From the NCBI GenBank assembly GCA_033763975.1, contig JANRJM010000002.1:62001-126000 (forward strand): a stretch of 64,000 nt of DNA. The letters are read 5' to 3'. A program made the position numbers and the translations under genes. The notes under the pieces are model-generated. The model had not been told where the DNA came from and ran no database searches. It saw only the letters and a program-made list of their open reading frames with translations. The stretch comes from Planctomycetota bacterium. GTDB lineage: Bacteria > Planctomycetota > Phycisphaerae > Phycisphaerales > UBA1924. Positions 38,347-44,163 of this stretch are shown here, piece after piece; the first letter of the stretch is position 1, and each line of letters opens with the position of its first letter.

Positions 38347-39480
38347 ATGAAGCATTCATCGGCTCATCATCGGTCCAGCGGCACGATCGTCGCACTCGGC
38401 GCGTGCAGGCGCGGCATTGACGGCGCATCACGTCTTGGCTTCACGGTCCTCGCGTGGCTGGCCGCCCTGGCCGTCGCACTCGCTGCGCCGGTTGCACAGG
38501 CCCAGCCCGTACCGGACTACGGCTTCGAGTGGCGGGCGATTCGAGATCCGGGCAACCCGGCGGCGTCGGGAGATCGGTTTCCCGGGTTCCCGCGGGACGG
38601 GATTCCCGAGGCCGGGCGCGTCGATTACGAGTTTCGTCTGACGCGTACCGAGATCACCGCGACGCAGTGGTTTGAGTTTGTAGACGCGTACTCGCGGTTC
38701 AACCCGGTGCAGGGGTCGCTGGCCGCGTCGCTCGGCGGCAGGCATCTAATCCGTATTCCGGACTCCGGCGACCCGCGCGGCTACCGGTGGGAAGTACTCG
38801 CCGACGCGCTCGACGCCGCGGCGGACATGGGCTGGTGGTACGCCGCCCGGTATTGCAACTGGCTGCACAATGGGAAAGTGAATGAGGCGTGGGCCTTCGA
38901 GAGTGGCGCCTACGACAGCGCGACGTGGACGGCGGACCCGACGAATCCGTACGGCGGGCAAGTGGTGCGTTCGCCGGGAGCCATGTTCTGGATCCCGAAC
39001 CTCGATGAGTGGACGAAGGCGATGCACTGGGACCCGAACAAACTTGGCCCGGGCATCGGTGATTACTGGCTCTACCCGCACGCGAGCGACACGCCGCCGG
39101 TGGGGGGCATGCCGGGGACGGCGGGCGCGCAGACCGGTGCGGGGGTGTACGACGACGAAGGCACGTTCCGAATCTACCCGGTGGGTTCGTACCCGAACGC
39201 GCAGAGCCCGTGGGGGTTGCTCGATGGGTCGGGCGGCGTGACGGAGTGGCTCGAGGGCGCGTTCCCCAACGGTGTGAGACCGGCGCGGGGGTCGGACAAC
39301 TCGTACACGGACGTGGATTACTGGGACCGAATCGACAAAATCCATGGGTTAACTCCGGAGCAGTGGGGCTTCGGGCTCAGAGTAGCCTCGGTCGTGCCCG
39401 CTCCGGGGACTGCGGGCGTTCTCGTTTTGTCTGTGCTGCTGTACACATCACGAAGGAGGTTCAGATGCGGAAGGCGATAA
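38347..39480 (+). CDS. Exported SUMF1/FGE-fold protein with PEP-CTERM-like tail
   Basis: 377 residues; GGAG lies 7 nt before the ATG. A long N-region leads to a signal peptide ending APVAQAQ. The SUMF1 (formylglycine-generating-enzyme) fold is shown by YEFRLTRTEITATQWFEFV, ARYCNWLHNG, FWIPNLDEWTKAMHW and GSGGVTEWLEG. The Cys expected after EW in active enzymes is replaced by Leu, so oxidase activity is unlikely. The C-terminus, VPAPGTAGVLVLSVLLY then TSRRRFRCGRR, has the Pro-rich, hydrophobic, basic order of PEP-CTERM signals in planctomycetes. It is the only such tail seen in the window. A/T-ending codons are more frequent than in neighbours. The last 16 bp overlap the next gene. Confidence 0.83.
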   Translation: MKHSSAHHRSSGTIVALGACRRGIDGASRLGFTVLAWLAALAVALAAPVAQAQPVPDYGFEWRAIRDPGNPAASGDRFPGFPRDGIPEAGRVDYEFRLTRTEITATQWFEFVDAYSRFNPVQGSLAASLGGRHLIRIPDSGDPRGYRWEVLADALDAAADMGWWYAARYCNWLHNGKVNEAWAFESGAYDSATWTADPTNPYGGQVVRSPGAMFWIPNLDEWTKAMHWDPNKLGPGIGDYWLYPHASDTPPVGGMPGTAGAQTGAGVYDDEGTFRIYPVGSYPNAQSPWGLLDGSGGVTEWLEGAFPNGVRPARGSDNSYTDVDYWDRIDKIHGLTPEQWGFGLRVASVVPAPGTAGVLVLSVLLYTSRRRFRCGRR

Positions 39481-41297
39481 CGCTCGGTGTCCTAGTACTG
39501 TCGTCGAGTGTTTCGTCCGCGGTGGTCTCCGTCGGCGTGAACCCATCCGGCGACCCACACGCGTACGCAACCGTGACGCAGACCGGGCTGACGACCTACA
39601 CGGTCGAACTGGTCGTAGAGTCGGCCTTTGCGGGGAGTTCCGCGTCGTTTGCAATCGGCGGGGCCACGACTGATACGATCGAGTCGATCACGGTGCGGGC
39701 CGATTCGGCGGCGCCGGTCTCGTTCACGATCGGTTCGACAAGTGCCTTCGTGGGATCCGTTGGAGACATCGACATCGGCACGAGCACGAGCCATGTGACA
39801 CTCACCGAAGGGCGTGTACTGAACAACCTCGGGTCTATGCGCATCCACAAAGTCACCTTTCTTCAGGTGAACGGCCAGATTCTCGGAGACATCACGTGTG
39901 AATCGCACACATCCGGAGTCAGCGACCTCCTGTCGCTGCGCAGCGGGTCGGTCGCCACGCCCGGCGGCATCTTCGGCGACATCACGGTCGAGCATGGCAA
40001 GGCCGACTTCATCTCCGTCTTCGGCGGCGACATCGGCACGCCCACGTCGCCGGTGACGATCCGCGTGCGGGACGACATCGGGTCGATCGACGCGGACGCC
40101 GTATATGCGAGTATCGGTGCGCCAACGGGCGCCACAGTCCGTCCGCGCATCCGCCGCCTTGCGGCCAATGCCGGCCCGATCGTCGGCGACCTGCATGTTC
40201 GATCGTTCCAGTTGCTGACGGGCCAGAACACGGCCGGAATCTACGCCCTTGCCGGTGACCTCGACGCCGATGTGATCATCGCCGAGAACACGACGGCGGG
40301 CGGGTTCAGAGTCTCCGGCGGCGTGTTTCCCGATGGCCGCATCCTTCGAATCGGCGGCTCGCTGTCGAACCCGCCAGTCCAGGGCTTCAACGGCGCTATC
40401 GAACTTCCGGCCAACGGCCTTCAGGGCCAGATCATCGTGAATGCCTCGAATGGAGGAGGGTCGTGGGTCGGCAACGTCGTGGTGGGGACAACAACGCTCG
40501 TGCCGGAGCCGGATTACACGCAGACGTCCGCCTCGATCGGCGGCGGGGCCGTCGGGCAGGTGCGATTCCGATTGCATGATGAGGACTGCTCGCCAGCAAA
40601 TACGCCGAGTTCCCCGCCGGAGATCCTCAACTCGAAGTTCTGCGGACGCATCGCCGGCCAGGAGGAGTACATCACCCTGCGGTTCTACGGCCCGGTGCGC
40701 GTGGACCACACGTCGGCGAGCCCGGTCACCATCCGCGCCGATGGCACGCCGAGCGTGCTGAGCGAACGCGCCACCGCCGCGTTCCTGACGCGCAGCAGCA
40801 CGGGGGCCGCGTCGCGCGAGGTGGAGATCCGCGGGTCGAACCTTCGGCGCCTGCTCCCCGGCGTGTACCGCATCCGCCCGGTGACAACCGCGAGCGACGA
40901 CGGCGTGTACTCGCTCCGCCCGTTGCTCTGTGACGACACGCTCGTGGAGCCGAATCCGCCGCTGGTGACGGACTTCGAGTACGTGTTCGAGCTTCTCTCC
41001 GACTGCAACGACAACGGTATCGATGATGTGACTGAGATCGCGCAGAATCCGTCGCTGGACCTCTTCCCCGGGGATGGATGCATCGATTACTGCTACTCGG
41101 GCACCTGCGGGCTGGACTACAACGGCGACGGCAATGTGGACCAGGACGACTTCCAGTGTCTCGCGCAGGCCGTGGGCGGCACCTTGACGTGCTTGGCTGT
41201 CGGCGCCGACCCGGACTTCAACCAGGACGGGAACGTCGATCAGGATGACGTGCTTGCCCTCGGATCGACGATCGCGGGCGATCCATGCCCGTGGTAG
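39465..41297 (+). CDS. Secreted protein of unknown function with variant dockerin-like tail (CPW end)
   Basis: AAGGAGGT, inside the upstream coding region, lies 4 nt before the ATG at 39465, so the two genes overlap by 16 bp and are probably co-translated. 610 residues; signal peptide MRKAITLGVLVLSSSVSSA. The mature protein is a long series of short beta strands with repeated GDI and IG motifs (about 80-320: VGSVGDIDIGT, ILGDITCE, IFGDITVE), suggesting a beta-helix or autotransporter-like passenger fold. A DCNDNGIDDVTEIA linker precedes the tail. The loops are DYNGDGNVDQDD and DFNQDGNVDQDD. The end is GDPCPW: TGC CCG TGG TAG, one base from the usual TGC CCG TGA. Confidence 0.83.
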   Translation: MRKAITLGVLVLSSSVSSAVVSVGVNPSGDPHAYATVTQTGLTTYTVELVVESAFAGSSASFAIGGATTDTIESITVRADSAAPVSFTIGSTSAFVGSVGDIDIGTSTSHVTLTEGRVLNNLGSMRIHKVTFLQVNGQILGDITCESHTSGVSDLLSLRSGSVATPGGIFGDITVEHGKADFISVFGGDIGTPTSPVTIRVRDDIGSIDADAVYASIGAPTGATVRPRIRRLAANAGPIVGDLHVRSFQLLTGQNTAGIYALAGDLDADVIIAENTTAGGFRVSGGVFPDGRILRIGGSLSNPPVQGFNGAIELPANGLQGQIIVNASNGGGSWVGNVVVGTTTLVPEPDYTQTSASIGGGAVGQVRFRLHDEDCSPANTPSSPPEILNSKFCGRIAGQEEYITLRFYGPVRVDHTSASPVTIRADGTPSVLSERATAAFLTRSSTGAASREVEIRGSNLRRLLPGVYRIRPVTTASDDGVYSLRPLLCDDTLVEPNPPLVTDFEYVFELLSDCNDNGIDDVTEIAQNPSLDLFPGDGCIDYCYSGTCGLDYNGDGNVDQDDFQCLAQAVGGTLTCLAVGADPDFNQDGNVDQDDVLALGSTIAGDPCPW

Positions 41298-41345: not shown

Positions 41346-42623
41346 ATGGCGAGCGTCGTCTTCTACTTTCAGGTGCACCAGCCGTTCCGTCTTCGTCGGT
41401 ACAGCGTCTTTGACGCGGACCCGTTCTACTTCGAGGACACGAAGAACGCGGAGATCTGCCGCAAGGTGGCGGACAAGTGCTACCGACCGGCGACGCAGCT
41501 GATCCTGGACCTCGTGCGCCGGCACAAGGGCAACTTCCGCGTCAGCTACGCGATCACCGGGGTGGTGCTGGAGCAGTTGGAGCGCTGGGCGCCGGACGTG
41601 ATCACGACGTTCCAGGACCTCGCGAAGACGGGCTGCTGCGAGTTCATCGGCGAGACGTACTACCACTCGCTGGCGGGGATCTACAGCCGCACGGAGTTCA
41701 ACGAGCAGGTGGAGATGCACACGCGCAAGGTGCAGCACCTGTTCGGGCAGACGCCGTCGGTCTTCCGGAACACGGAACTGATCTACAACAACGATCTGGC
41801 GTGGCACGTGAGCCAGATGCGCGGGGCCGACGGCGGGCGTCGCTTCAAGGGCATGATCTGCGAGGGCGTGGACCGGCACCTGGGGTTCCGCTCGCCGAAC
41901 TTCGTGTACCAGCCGAGCGGCAAGCCCACGGGGCGGGGCGACAAGCCCTTCGGGCTGCTGCTGAAGAACTACCGCCTGAGCGACGACATCGCGTTCCGGT
42001 TCAGCAACCGGGGCTGGGCCGAGTGGCCGCTCTCGGCCGAGAAGTTCGCGCAGTGGGTGCACCAGATCAACGGCGACGGGTATCTGTGCAACCTGTTCAT
42101 GGACTACGAGACGTTCGGCGAGCACCAGTGGGCGGACACGGGGATCTTCAACTTCCTGAGCAAGCTGCCCGAGGCCGTCTTCGACGTGGCGCCCGGGCAG
42201 AACCACTTCATCACGCCCGGCGAGGCGATCGACCAGTTCGCGCCCGTCGGCGAGTACGATGTGCACGAGTACATCTCGTGGGCCGACACCGAGCGCGACC
42301 TCACTGCGTGGCGCGGCAACGCCATGCAGTGGAACGCGCTCGAGGAGACGTACCGCCTGGAGCGCGAGATCAAGGCGCGCGTGGAGCGGGCCAACGCCGA
42401 GGGCGACGCCGAGGAGAAAGCCCACGCGGCACACCTGCTCGAGGACTGGCGCAAGCTCACCACCAGCGATCACTTCTACTACATGTGCACGAAGTACTTC
42501 GCCGACGGCGACGTGCACAAGTACTTCAACCCGTACGACTCGCCCTACGACTCGTACATCAACTTCATGAACGTGCTGGACAACATCCGCACGCGTCTGG
42601 CGACGACGGCGTCCGTGCGGTAG
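41346..42623 (+). CDS. Glycoside hydrolase family 57 (alpha-amylase type)
   Basis: 425 residues, no signal peptide, so cytoplasmic. GH57 enzymes are retaining amylases or branching enzymes acting on alpha-glucans such as glycogen. Motifs in order: FQVHQPFRL (motif 1), ECIG-like EFIGETYYHSL (motif 2), VFRNTELIYNN with the nucleophile Glu144 (motif 3) and LFMDYETFGEHQW with the acid/base Asp253 (motif 4). The C-terminal third is helical (EREIKARVERANAEGDAEEK) and ends with a Tyr-rich segment. Its length fits alpha-amylases of the family rather than the larger branching enzymes. Confidence 0.9.
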   Translation: MASVVFYFQVHQPFRLRRYSVFDADPFYFEDTKNAEICRKVADKCYRPATQLILDLVRRHKGNFRVSYAITGVVLEQLERWAPDVITTFQDLAKTGCCEFIGETYYHSLAGIYSRTEFNEQVEMHTRKVQHLFGQTPSVFRNTELIYNNDLAWHVSQMRGADGGRRFKGMICEGVDRHLGFRSPNFVYQPSGKPTGRGDKPFGLLLKNYRLSDDIAFRFSNRGWAEWPLSAEKFAQWVHQINGDGYLCNLFMDYETFGEHQWADTGIFNFLSKLPEAVFDVAPGQNHFITPGEAIDQFAPVGEYDVHEYISWADTERDLTAWRGNAMQWNALEETYRLEREIKARVERANAEGDAEEKAHAAHLLEDWRKLTTSDHFYYMCTKYFADGDVHKYFNPYDSPYDSYINFMNVLDNIRTRLATTASVR

Positions 42624-42831: not shown

Positions 42832-44163
42832 TCAGGGGCACTCGGACCCGGCGACGACCTGCTCGAGGGCCGCGATGTCGTCCTGGTCGACGTTGCCGTC
42901 CTGGTTGAAGTCCGGGTCGACGCCCGCGCCGAGGCACTCGGGCGAGCCACCGACCGCCTGCGAGAGGCACGCGATGTCGTCCTGATCGACGTTGCCGTCG
43001 GCGTTGACGTCGGGATCGCAGGGCGCACCGGCGGACAGGCGGGCGATGTAGCCGAAGTACTTCTGCGTCGTGGTGTCGTAGCACCAGCCGCCGAGGATCG
43101 TGCCGTCGCCGCTGCAGAAGGTCTCGCGCACGCGGATGTTGGTGGGGATCATGACGCCGGCGTCGCCGAGGATGGTGCGGAGTGCGCGGCTGCCGTCGCC
43201 GGGGGTCCACACCAGCCCGTCCCAGGTGCTCACGCCCCCCGCGATGGTGTAGCCCACCAGCGTGTTGCCGTCGAGCGAGCAATCAAAGATGTACGACGAC
43301 GCGATCGCGGGCGTGCCGCTGGGGGGCAAGATCGCCTGGAGCCCGCCGGGCTGGGTCCAGCGGAAACCGACGTTGATGAACTCCCCGCCGGCGTTCGTGG
43401 TGGAGCCCAGGCCGACGACGACCGAGCCGTCGGCGGAAGCGGCGAAGCCCTCGATACCCACGTTGAACGGGTTGGGGAGGATGCCCAGGTCGGTGGGCAT
43501 GACGCCGCCGTTGAACCACGCGGCCCCGCGCTGGAAGTCGTCGGTGTCGGGGTCGAAGTCGCCGATGGTGCCGAAGCCGACCACGGCCGTGCCGTCGGCC
43601 GAGACGCCCTGCACCGAGGAGAAGATCAGCATGTCATCGCCGATGTCGTCGAGGGGAACGAAGCCGCCCGTCGAGGTCCAGCGCCACCCCTGCTGGTACG
43701 GATCGCCGAAGTTCGCGCCCGTGAGGCCGACGACCATGGAGCCGTCGCCCGAGACGCCGGTGGCGTACGAGATGTTCCCGCCGGAGAGCCCGCCGATCTC
43801 GAGGAAGCCGCTCTCGCCCCAGACGAAGGCGCTGGTGGCGCCGCCCGGCCCGCCCCCGACGTAGCCGACGACCACCGAGCCGTCCGCGCTCAGCGAGAGC
43901 GCGTTGAGGTCGCGCCCGAGCGGATCGACCAGGTCGCGCCGCGTGCCGTTCGTCAGGTCGAGCACGTAGCAGAAGGGGATCGTCGGGCGGGTCTGCGAGT
44001 TCTGGAGCGAGACGAGCGCGAACTGCCCATTGTCGCTGATGTCCTGCACCACCGCGTAGTCAAAGCCGGCGTCGGGCGCGATCGTCTCGAACGACTGCCC
44101 GTGCGCGTGCGAGACCATCGCCAGGATCGTGGCGGCCACGGAGAACGGAACCGTGCGAATCAT
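42832..44163 (-). CDS. Secreted repeat protein (HAF/propeller-like) with dockerin-like tail
   Basis: GAGGAGGT lies 7 nt before the ATG at 44163; 443 residues, signal peptide ending SHAHG. The mature part repeats a unit of about 45-60 residues built around SxDGSVVVG followed by an aromatic F-x-W strand: LSADGSVVVGYVGG, VSGDGSMVVGLTG, VSADGTAVVGFGT, ASADGSVVVGLGS, CSLDGNTLVGYTI. This matches HAF-type repeats predicted to form a beta-propeller and often found on PEP-CTERM proteins. The tail loops are DVNADGNVDQDD and DFNQDGNVDQDD, ending GSECP. Ligand unknown. Confidence 0.85.
   Translation of the reverse strand: MIRTVPFSVAATILAMVSHAHGQSFETIAPDAGFDYAVVQDISDNGQFALVSLQNSQTRPTIPFCYVLDLTNGTRRDLVDPLGRDLNALSLSADGSVVVGYVGGGPGGATSAFVWGESGFLEIGGLSGGNISYATGVSGDGSMVVGLTGANFGDPYQQGWRWTSTGGFVPLDDIGDDMLIFSSVQGVSADGTAVVGFGTIGDFDPDTDDFQRGAAWFNGGVMPTDLGILPNPFNVGIEGFAASADGSVVVGLGSTTNAGGEFINVGFRWTQPGGLQAILPPSGTPAIASSYIFDCSLDGNTLVGYTIAGGVSTWDGLVWTPGDGSRALRTILGDAGVMIPTNIRVRETFCSGDGTILGGWCYDTTTQKYFGYIARLSAGAPCDPDVNADGNVDQDDIACLSQAVGGSPECLGAGVDPDFNQDGNVDQDDIAALEQVVAGSECP

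Follow-up and report, generated by a model that had tools for sequence, protein, structure and literature searches.

Genes A and B and their predicted products

The window analysed is a stretch of 64,000 nucleotides from a planctomycete of the order Phycisphaerales, and it contains two overlapping genes on the plus strand, here called A and B. Gene A (38347..39480, plus strand) starts with ATG and encodes a predicted secreted protein of 377 amino acids with an FGE-sulfatase (SUMF1-like) fold and a C-terminal PEP-CTERM tail. A hydrophobic helix near the N terminus (residues 27-52; 38425..38502, plus strand), placed by the AF2 model and by inspection of the sequence, is a probable signal peptide ending in ..APVAQA. 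The predicted FGE-like domain occupies residues 57-351 (38515..39399, plus strand), as delimited by a second-look comparison with the PDB, and lacks the catalytic cysteine pair. Gene A matched PF03781 with an E value of 1.4e-10 and 41.8 bits (cut-off 23.3). The AF2 model (pLDDT 87.8) gave Z scores of about 18-21 with FGE-fold chains in the PDB (FGE, EgtB, PvdO and CarF); human FGE (1y1h) was aligned at Z 18.3 and rmsd 3.5 over 216 positions.

Homologs of A were matched in at least 87 of 151 genomes, the set consisting of the organism's own genome, which is included in the count, and 150 relatives. The window's own A was aligned with 47 of the 74 A relatives listed, and the identity to A among these 48 sequences was 34-50%. 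In segment 270-350, which we take to be the place of the FGE catalytic cysteine pair, near the domain end, 47 sequences had no cysteine and one had a single cysteine; the pair was present in none. No histidine or cysteine was invariant across the 48 sequences. His174 was kept in 85% of them, so that a metal site in A is still conceivable. The most variable stretches of A include residues 301-340, just before the tail.

The PEP-CTERM tail of A (39394..39465, plus strand), located by TIGR02595 and the AF2 helix, is attached to the FGE-like domain without a linker. It consists of a VPAPG motif, a hydrophobic helix (residues 353-374) and a basic end, and the C-terminal end of the protein is VPAPGTAGVLVLSVLLYTSRRRFRCGRR. 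TIGR02595 (PEP_CTERM) scored 14.9 bits on this tail and 16.0 bits, exactly the 16-bit cut-off, when frame neighbours were included; across 14 control genomes this model gave 2 matches above the cut-off. A itself had no match at E 0.01 in the scan of the NCBIfam library, neither to TIGR02595 nor to GldK, and TIGR02595 was matched at E ≤0.01 by only 1 of the 48 aligned sequences. By pattern, a PEP-CTERM-like end was present in 107 of 119 A homologs, which were those of 132 gene models that passed a filter. A sequence-only reading had assigned a PEP-CTERM-like tail to the gene at 38347, and the end of the protein together with the 16.0-bit score bears this out.

Gene B (39465..41297, plus strand) encodes a predicted secreted multidomain protein of 610 amino acids, of which residues 1-537 were matched in 44 of the 151 genomes (own included). 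AF2 and the second look at the PDB predict a beta-helix for residues 20-366 (39522..40562, plus strand). It was aligned with the HMW1 secretion domain (2odl) at Z 16.6 and rmsd 4.7 over 282 positions; beta-helices generally resemble one another. An Ig-like/CopC-like domain is predicted for residues 367-512 (40563..41000, plus strand) in a lower-confidence part of the AF2 model, and its match to CopC (6nfr; Z 8.4, rmsd 2.3, 95 aligned) is near the level that the tool designates 'common'. Foldseek gave no PDB match for B at E 0.001, the best rows being antibody domains, and the body of B fell into no family in the library scans. Identity to B among the gene-B sequences was 20-32%. One of 29 aligned gene-B proteins (the window's own B and 28 of 30 listed relatives) matched DUF7406 with an E value of 0.0058.

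Residues 549-610 of B (41109..41294, plus strand) form a dockerin-like tail, which ends in PCPW and contains two D-x-N-x-D-G repeats of the dockerin-type calcium-loop kind. PF00404 scored 21.3 bits on this tail, just below the cut-off of 22.9, and 23.6 and 25.8 bits on resident tail copies in the same genome. Besides dockerin, the library scan of B gave only sub-threshold EF-hand and effector-model matches, all on the tail. When the tail alone was compared with PDB sequences, dockerin 2y3n_B was the best match (E 9.9e-5), and the other 20 rows were EF-hand proteins, mostly troponin C. The model of the tail was aligned with dockerin 6kge at Z 6.7 and rmsd 2.4 over 59 positions. B resembles the family NF041540 dockerin_GC ('GC-type dockerin domain-anchored protein') in its dockerin-like C-terminal domain, but this model matched neither B or its tail nor the resident copy L005; it was matched by 2 of the 29 aligned gene-B proteins.

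Overlap and conservation of the gene pair

The ATG of gene B at 39465 is located inside gene A, and the two genes overlap by 16 bp, the stop codon of A included. A Shine-Dalgarno sequence for gene B, AAGGAGGT (39453..39460, plus strand), is situated within the coding sequence of A, 4 nt before this ATG. Both the overlap and the internal Shine-Dalgarno sequence had already been described in the sequence-only reading. The octamer was seen twice in the window (0.47 expected), and at least two copies were present in 9 of 100 shuffles; as it is this frequent in shuffles, its position counts more than its rarity.

The A-B pair is a conserved module. A search that made no use of A found 95 gene-B loci in 44 of the 151 genomes, the window's own locus included. 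An A homolog was present upstream, on the same strand and within 3.5 kb, at 69 of these loci; 26 were without A, and none showed any other arrangement of the two genes. At the unpaired loci the flanks covered were 3 kb upstream and 1.5 kb downstream, and 10 of the 26 had a contig end within 400 bp on the upstream side. Gene models on the fetched stretches gave A upstream of 100 gene-B models, no A for 27 and A downstream for 1; in this last case (G008:C55, 2333-2767) the stretch starts past an A homolog that is listed upstream of B.

Loci were also fetched with A alone, for which A regions were taken, by choice, for 95 of the 150 A matches listed. The 80 loci obtained share genomes with the 95 gene-B loci. 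A B homolog was present within 2.2 kb at 37 of the 68 loci with at least 1 kb of downstream sequence, and no B was detectable at the remaining 31. No B match was present elsewhere in the 80 loci; G050:C66 and L279 have tandem A genes with no B match.

Among 31 close pairs the start of B overlapped the end of A in 22, by exactly 4 nt in 14. A Shine-Dalgarno sequence of at least 4 nt was present in 28 of the 31, a count to be read with the start-picking rule in mind, which itself favours such starts. Bacterial operons often have short gene overlaps with an internal ribosome site, and a 4-nt overlap is ordinary.

Tails, exosortases and cohesins

The dockerin-like tail of B had 80 matches within its own genome, and its amino-acid identity to the host's own tails was 51-70%. 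The tails of gene-B homologs vary: dockerins of different types, a helical tail, or none. The dockerin types tend to follow the host genome, as judged from 27 of 76 untruncated gene-B proteins with a repeat pattern that does not capture the DIFDFL type. The helical tail of the gene-B proteins of G012 and G081 had 4 and 4 matches in those genomes and none in G058. Among A homologs, a dockerin-like tail replaces the PEP-CTERM tail in four; NF041540 matched all four with E values of 1.7e-5 or better, three of them at or over the cut-off, and it was matched by 3 of the 48 aligned A sequences.

The organism's own genome contains two exosortases (PF09721, E 3.8e-48 and 8.5e-46), both above the TIGR02602 cut-off; no Xrt subtype model was over its cut-off for either. 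Twenty-seven PEP-CTERM matches in this genome were at or over the cut-off. An exosortase match was obtained in all 151 genomes and was over the cut-off in 150; possession of an exosortase is ordinary among these relatives. Cohesin PF00963 had no match in the own genome or in the other six members of the genus, a search that a diverged receptor would escape; it was present in 14 of the 151 genomes and over the cut-off in 13.

The sequence-only reading had exposed itself to refutation at two points, an exosortase in the genome and linkage of the two genes in relatives; the enzymes are present and the pair is conserved. Its proposal that two sorting routes are deployed together must be qualified, as the combination is no fixed design: gene-B homologs also carry other tails or none, and four A homologs have a dockerin-like tail.

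Discussion

Our preferred interpretation is that A is a non-enzymatic hub processed by exosortase and that B is its translationally coupled surface partner, to which we assign a probability of about 0.5. A would be exported, its PEP-CTERM tail would keep it at the membrane, an exosortase encoded in the genome would then process it, and its FGE-fold domain would be a docking scaffold, not an enzyme. B, with a predicted long beta-helix and Ig-like domain, would be exported as the partner of A, and its replaceable tail would plug into the host's own docking system. Ribosomes finishing A would start B at the overlap, so that both proteins would be made together and in similar amounts, and A and B would assemble into one surface structure. 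Translational coupling, the A-B complex and its ratio, surface location and tail-receptor binding are what we infer in this scheme. As A and B are kept together in relatives, they may make one surface structure, and the surface assembly proposed in the sequence-only reading is plausible.

The closest precedent for such a hub is found in the type 9 secretion system, where PorK, according to PMC12421860, has an FGE fold without catalytic cysteines and acts as the hub on which a partner protein docks. A shares with PorK/GldK the FGE fold, the missing catalytic cysteines, export and membrane attachment, the last two being predicted for A. PorK chain 9p6h_B was aligned with the A model at Z 17.9 and rmsd 4.2 over 242 positions, and the GldK/PorK model was matched at E ≤0.01 by 8 of the 48 aligned A sequences (best E 5.6e-5), but not by A itself. 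The anchor also differs, being a PEP-CTERM tail in A and a lipid in PorK/GldK, and so does the neighbour, a predicted beta-helix protein in the case of A and PorN in that of PorK. With the exosortase substrates of PMC1569441, A has in common the C-terminal PEP motif with a hydrophobic helix and a basic end, and a genome with exosortases; unlike them, it has a folded FGE-like domain immediately before the tail, and its gene overlaps with the gene of a partner bearing a dockerin-like tail. B resembles the 'planctosome' proteins, which PMC6461901 presents as non-cellulosomal dockerin proteins of Planctomycetes that use cohesin domains, in having a dockerin-like module in a planctomycete and no sign of cellulose breakdown, but its own genome has no PF00963 match. 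The predicted beta-helix of B may be akin to the TpsA secretion domain of two-partner secretion (2odl), given that beta-helices in general look alike; the conserved neighbour of B is A.

The main competing explanation, tentative but considerably stronger than the others below, is that A and B are independent secreted proteins of one operon, co-regulated and co-duplicating without touching each other. A and B co-evolve only weakly: for 68 pairs from 34 genomes the Spearman r was 0.10, a value reached by 260 of 500 shuffles of partners within genomes, and co-evolution was therefore rejected as proof of A-B binding. For the within-genome part r was 0.50 (58 comparisons), reached by 11 of 500 shuffles. 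The 31 A loci with room downstream and no detectable B, the tandem A genes and the ordinary nature of 4-nt overlaps likewise agree with independence. Against it, pairing at 69 of 95 and 37 of 68 loci without one inverted or opposite-strand case has persisted despite the low identity of the proteins. Conserved order would also be accounted for by an enzyme next to its substrate, A being an active member of the FGE/EgtB/PvdO superfamily that modifies B before display. The fold, the PF03781 match and the retention of His174 favour this, but a domain with the cysteine pair in 0 of 48 sequences, no invariant histidine or cysteine and a membrane tail joined without a linker makes such activity highly improbable. 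Least probable of all is a diversity-generating retroelement with A as its variable ligand-binding protein. The top row of the second look at the PDB was the C-type-lectin-like variable protein 1 of Treponema denticola (2y3c; Z 20.9, rmsd 2.8, 222 aligned), level with the two rows that follow, and residues 301-340 are among the most variable of A; the idea is disfavoured because the own genome has no match to reverse transcriptase PF00078, which was found in 1 of 10 genomes searched.

Codon usage bears on a further alternative, that A and B were acquired jointly in a recent horizontal transfer, which the sequence-only reading had suspected. The less GC-biased codon use on which that suspicion was based is real: GC3 is 0.798 in A and 0.826 in B, and the window median is 0.929 (39 rough gene calls, A and B included), with 3 of the 39 calls below A and 4 below B. 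For the other tail matches in the genome, the GC3 of their genes was 0.94 ± 0.03 (29 of 79 matches), and the tail of B is also low, at 0.855, whereas 29 resident tails average 0.945. However, at 29 pair loci of other hosts (those of 80 loci that passed the filters) GC3 was lower than in the flanks for A at 26 and for B at 28. The lower GC3 is therefore a trait of the family, and recent acquisition of the pair, already hard to reconcile with a tail of the host's own type, was rejected as very unlikely. Within B, GC3 is no different between the tail (0.855) and the body (0.823; Fisher p 0.6), which argues against transfer too; for the same reason, capture of the tail from a resident gene was rejected.

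The hub-and-partner interpretation can be extended to a plug-and-socket system in Phycisphaerales, in which an exosortase-sorted FGE-fold pseudoenzyme hub would receive a co-translated beta-helix partner, and this partner would carry a plug swapped to suit each genome's own cohesin-independent receptor. We regard this extension as speculative and rather unlikely as a whole. If it were true, the same protein bodies would be anchored interchangeably by PEP-CTERM or dockerin tails.

No description of the A-B pair was found in the literature searched, which covered few subscription journals. Neither PEP-CTERM with sulfatase-modifying factor nor a GC-type dockerin was found there. PEP-CTERM together with dockerin was not found either, exosortase with dockerin was found for ANME archaea only, and PEP-CTERM with Phycisphaerae was found only as a mention in a reference list.

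To our knowledge, the function of exosortase substrates is not well understood, and the same is true of planctomycete dockerins. The overlapping, conserved pair links the two and provides a concrete two-protein unit for tests. It raises the questions of whether an FGE-fold domain binds a beta-helix partner and of what holds a dockerin tail where there is no recognizable cohesin. As the variation of the tails suggests, the body of a surface protein can be retained while its tail follows the host genome. A could also be a case, outside the type 9 secretion ring, of an FGE fold that acts as a hub instead of an enzyme.

Organization and conservation of the gene pair

Gene A runs from its ATG at 38347 to 39480 (+ strand, 377 residues) and gene B from its ATG at 39465, inside gene A, to 41297 (+ strand, 610 residues). 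A Shine-Dalgarno-type site, AAGGAGGT (39453-39460, + strand), was located 4 nt ahead of the ATG of gene B. A mechanical call gave a longer open reading frame for gene B from 39210, which had no AAGGAGGT before its start; by inspection, the N-terminus obtained from ATG 39465 was leader-like. In the protein encoded by gene A, a hydrophobic helix near the N-terminus is followed by an FGE-sulfatase domain (PF03781, 41.8 bits versus a cut-off of 23.3), which leads directly into VPAPG, a second hydrophobic helix and a basic C-terminal end. On this tail the PEP-CTERM model TIGR02595 scored 14.9 bits, or 16.0 with neighbours, which is exactly the cut-off. The overlapping pair with PEP-CTERM-like and dockerin-like tails described in the sequence-only reading was confirmed; the interpretation attached to it was partly supported.

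In 22 of 31 close A-B pairs the start of B overlapped the end of A, by exactly 4 nt in 14 cases, and a Shine-Dalgarno sequence of at least 4 nt was present at the start of B in 28 of the 31, the start-picking rule favouring such sites. The 16-bp overlap in the window is a variant of this general feature.

Across the own genome and 150 relatives (151 genomes in all), 87 had a match to A and 44 had one to B searched without its tail. The 102 gene-B matches were merged to 95 loci, the window's own counted. The pair was conserved in relatives, as 69 of the 95 loci carried an A homolog directly upstream on the same strand within 3.5 kb, and no other arrangement of A and B occurred among them. The remaining 26 had no such homolog; in 10 of these, by our reading of the locus listings, a contig end lay at most 400 bp away on the upstream side. 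A second scan with the A alignment against named genomes, of which the best 80 of 402 loci were used (mostly Phycisphaerales or Phycisphaerae metagenome assemblies by title), shared several contigs with the first, judged by equal lengths (L258 corresponds to G004:C7, for example), and was not independent of it. Within these best 80, 68 loci continued for 1 kb or more downstream; a B homolog followed within 2.2 kb in 37 and a detectable B was absent in 31, with no B match elsewhere in the loci. Among the matches listed, one genome had five A homologs in a row (G050:C66:39125-44325), and in another three A matches lay inside a single 1125-residue open frame (G045:C155:8330-11509). The parts of the A-B module are of known kinds; no description of the module itself was found by title or abstract opening.

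Predicted folds and a possible complex

The structure model of gene A (pLDDT 87.8) matched FGE-fold chains with Z up to 20.9 (human FGE 18.3; PorK 17.9). The catalytic cysteine pair was absent in all 48 aligned A sequences, residues 270-350 containing no cysteine in 47 and one in the other, and no cysteine or histidine was invariant; His174 was kept in 85%. PorK also lacks these cysteines, and its FGE fold serves as a docking hub (PMC12421860). A profile of A found PorK chains weakly (best E 1.4e-4), and 8 of the 48 sequences matched the GldK model at E 0.01 or better. Gene A resembles PorK in an FGE fold lacking the catalytic cysteine pair, but itself had no GldK match at E 0.01. Because of this resemblance and the weak PorK and GldK matches, gene A may act as a PorK-like docking hub; it was not assigned to the PorK/GldK family.

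The model of gene B (pLDDT 79.3) comprised a predicted beta-helix (residues 20-366; Z 16.6, rmsd 4.7, 282 residues aligned to the HMW1 secretion domain), a predicted Ig-like domain (residues 367-512; Z 8.4 with CopC over 95 aligned residues at rmsd 2.3, close to the common level) and a dockerin-like end that aligned to 6kge (Z 6.7, rmsd 2.4, 59 residues). These predicted folds tell little about function.

Across 68 pairs the A and B distances correlated weakly, with an r of 0.10 that 260 of 500 within-genome and 30 of 500 free shuffles attained; for the 58 comparisons within genomes r was 0.50, a value attained in 11 of 500 shuffles. Given this weak correlation and the A loci without a detectable B, the single surface assembly proposed earlier, in which A and B would form a physical complex, stands at about even odds.

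Codon use

GC3 was lower in gene A (0.798) and gene B (0.826), as the sequence-only reading had noticed, the median of 39 rough gene calls in the window being 0.929; 29 other dockerin-tail genes had 0.94 and 26 PEP-CTERM genes 0.88. Across 29 loci of the pair in other hosts GC3 was below the flanks in 26 for gene A (mean -0.074) and in 28 for gene B (mean -0.098). Since the same drop recurs there, the lower GC3 is a family trait, and the shared recent acquisition suggested from it was dropped. GC3 of the gene B tail was likewise low (0.855 versus 0.945 in resident tails), which fits either explanation.

C-terminal tails and their possible partners

The own genome (3.27 Mb, 19 contigs; window G000:C2:62001-126000) was searched for an exosortase gene, and two were found (PF09721, E 3.8e-48 and 8.5e-46). 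Both exceeded the general TIGR02602 cut-off, and no Xrt subtype model exceeded its own cut-off with either. Their presence is ordinary, because all 151 genomes had an exosortase match, which exceeded the cut-off in 150. In the own genome TIGR02595 had 48 matches with E up to 10, of which 27 reached the cut-off, gene A at exactly 16 among them; 2 of 14 control genomes exceeded the cut-off. Cohesin was found in 14 of 151 genomes, and in none of the seven genomes of the genus, the own one included; a diverged cohesin would escape this search.

Searching the own genome with B yielded 80 matches with E at most 0.01, B among them; the other 79 hit only the last part of B, so this dockerin-like tail recurs as a C-terminus throughout the genome. 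Fifteen of the 80, B's own tail included, were at 15 gene ends within 6825-60562 of the window, which is a dockerin-rich island in a genome without a cohesin match. A 443-aa protein (42835-44163, - strand), encoded just beyond and on the opposite strand to the GH57 gene at 41346-42623, likewise ends in a tail of this kind, with a PF00404 score of 23.6 bits, and has a body unlike that of B.

Tails of gene-B homologs varied: relatives of B's tail within the genus, other dockerins, a helical non-dockerin tail, or none. Genome G004 of the same genus had its own variant (68 matches), and the DIFDFL type had at least 203 matches in G035 (150 of 332 candidates scored) and at least 90 in G055 (150 of 187 scored), many partial. 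The conserved helical-looking tail of the G012 and G081 proteins (e.g. G081:C179:4247-4432; 4 and 4 matches per genome) is possibly a further sorting or docking tail. In 27 gene-B proteins, taken from 76 by repeat pattern, likeness within versus between genomes was 0.47 versus 0.17 for tails and, a smaller effect, 0.20 versus 0.11 for bodies; label shuffles reached the difference in 0 and 2 of 1000, and the best partner came from the same genome in 11 and 4 of 17, respectively. By these measures the tails track the host more closely than the bodies do, which would fit both swapping and homogenization.

A PEP-CTERM-like end was recognized by pattern in 107 of 119 A homologs. Among the other 12, the one on G062:C22 was PEP-CTERM-like by eye, in four the PEP-CTERM end was replaced by a dockerin-like tail, with an NF041540 match of E 1.7e-5 or below in all four and a score that reached the cut-off of that model in three, and the remainder looked cut or shifted. 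These four FGE-like homologs (two on contig G064:C33, one each on G060:C98 and G038:C33) suggest that PEP-CTERM and dockerin-like anchors can replace each other.
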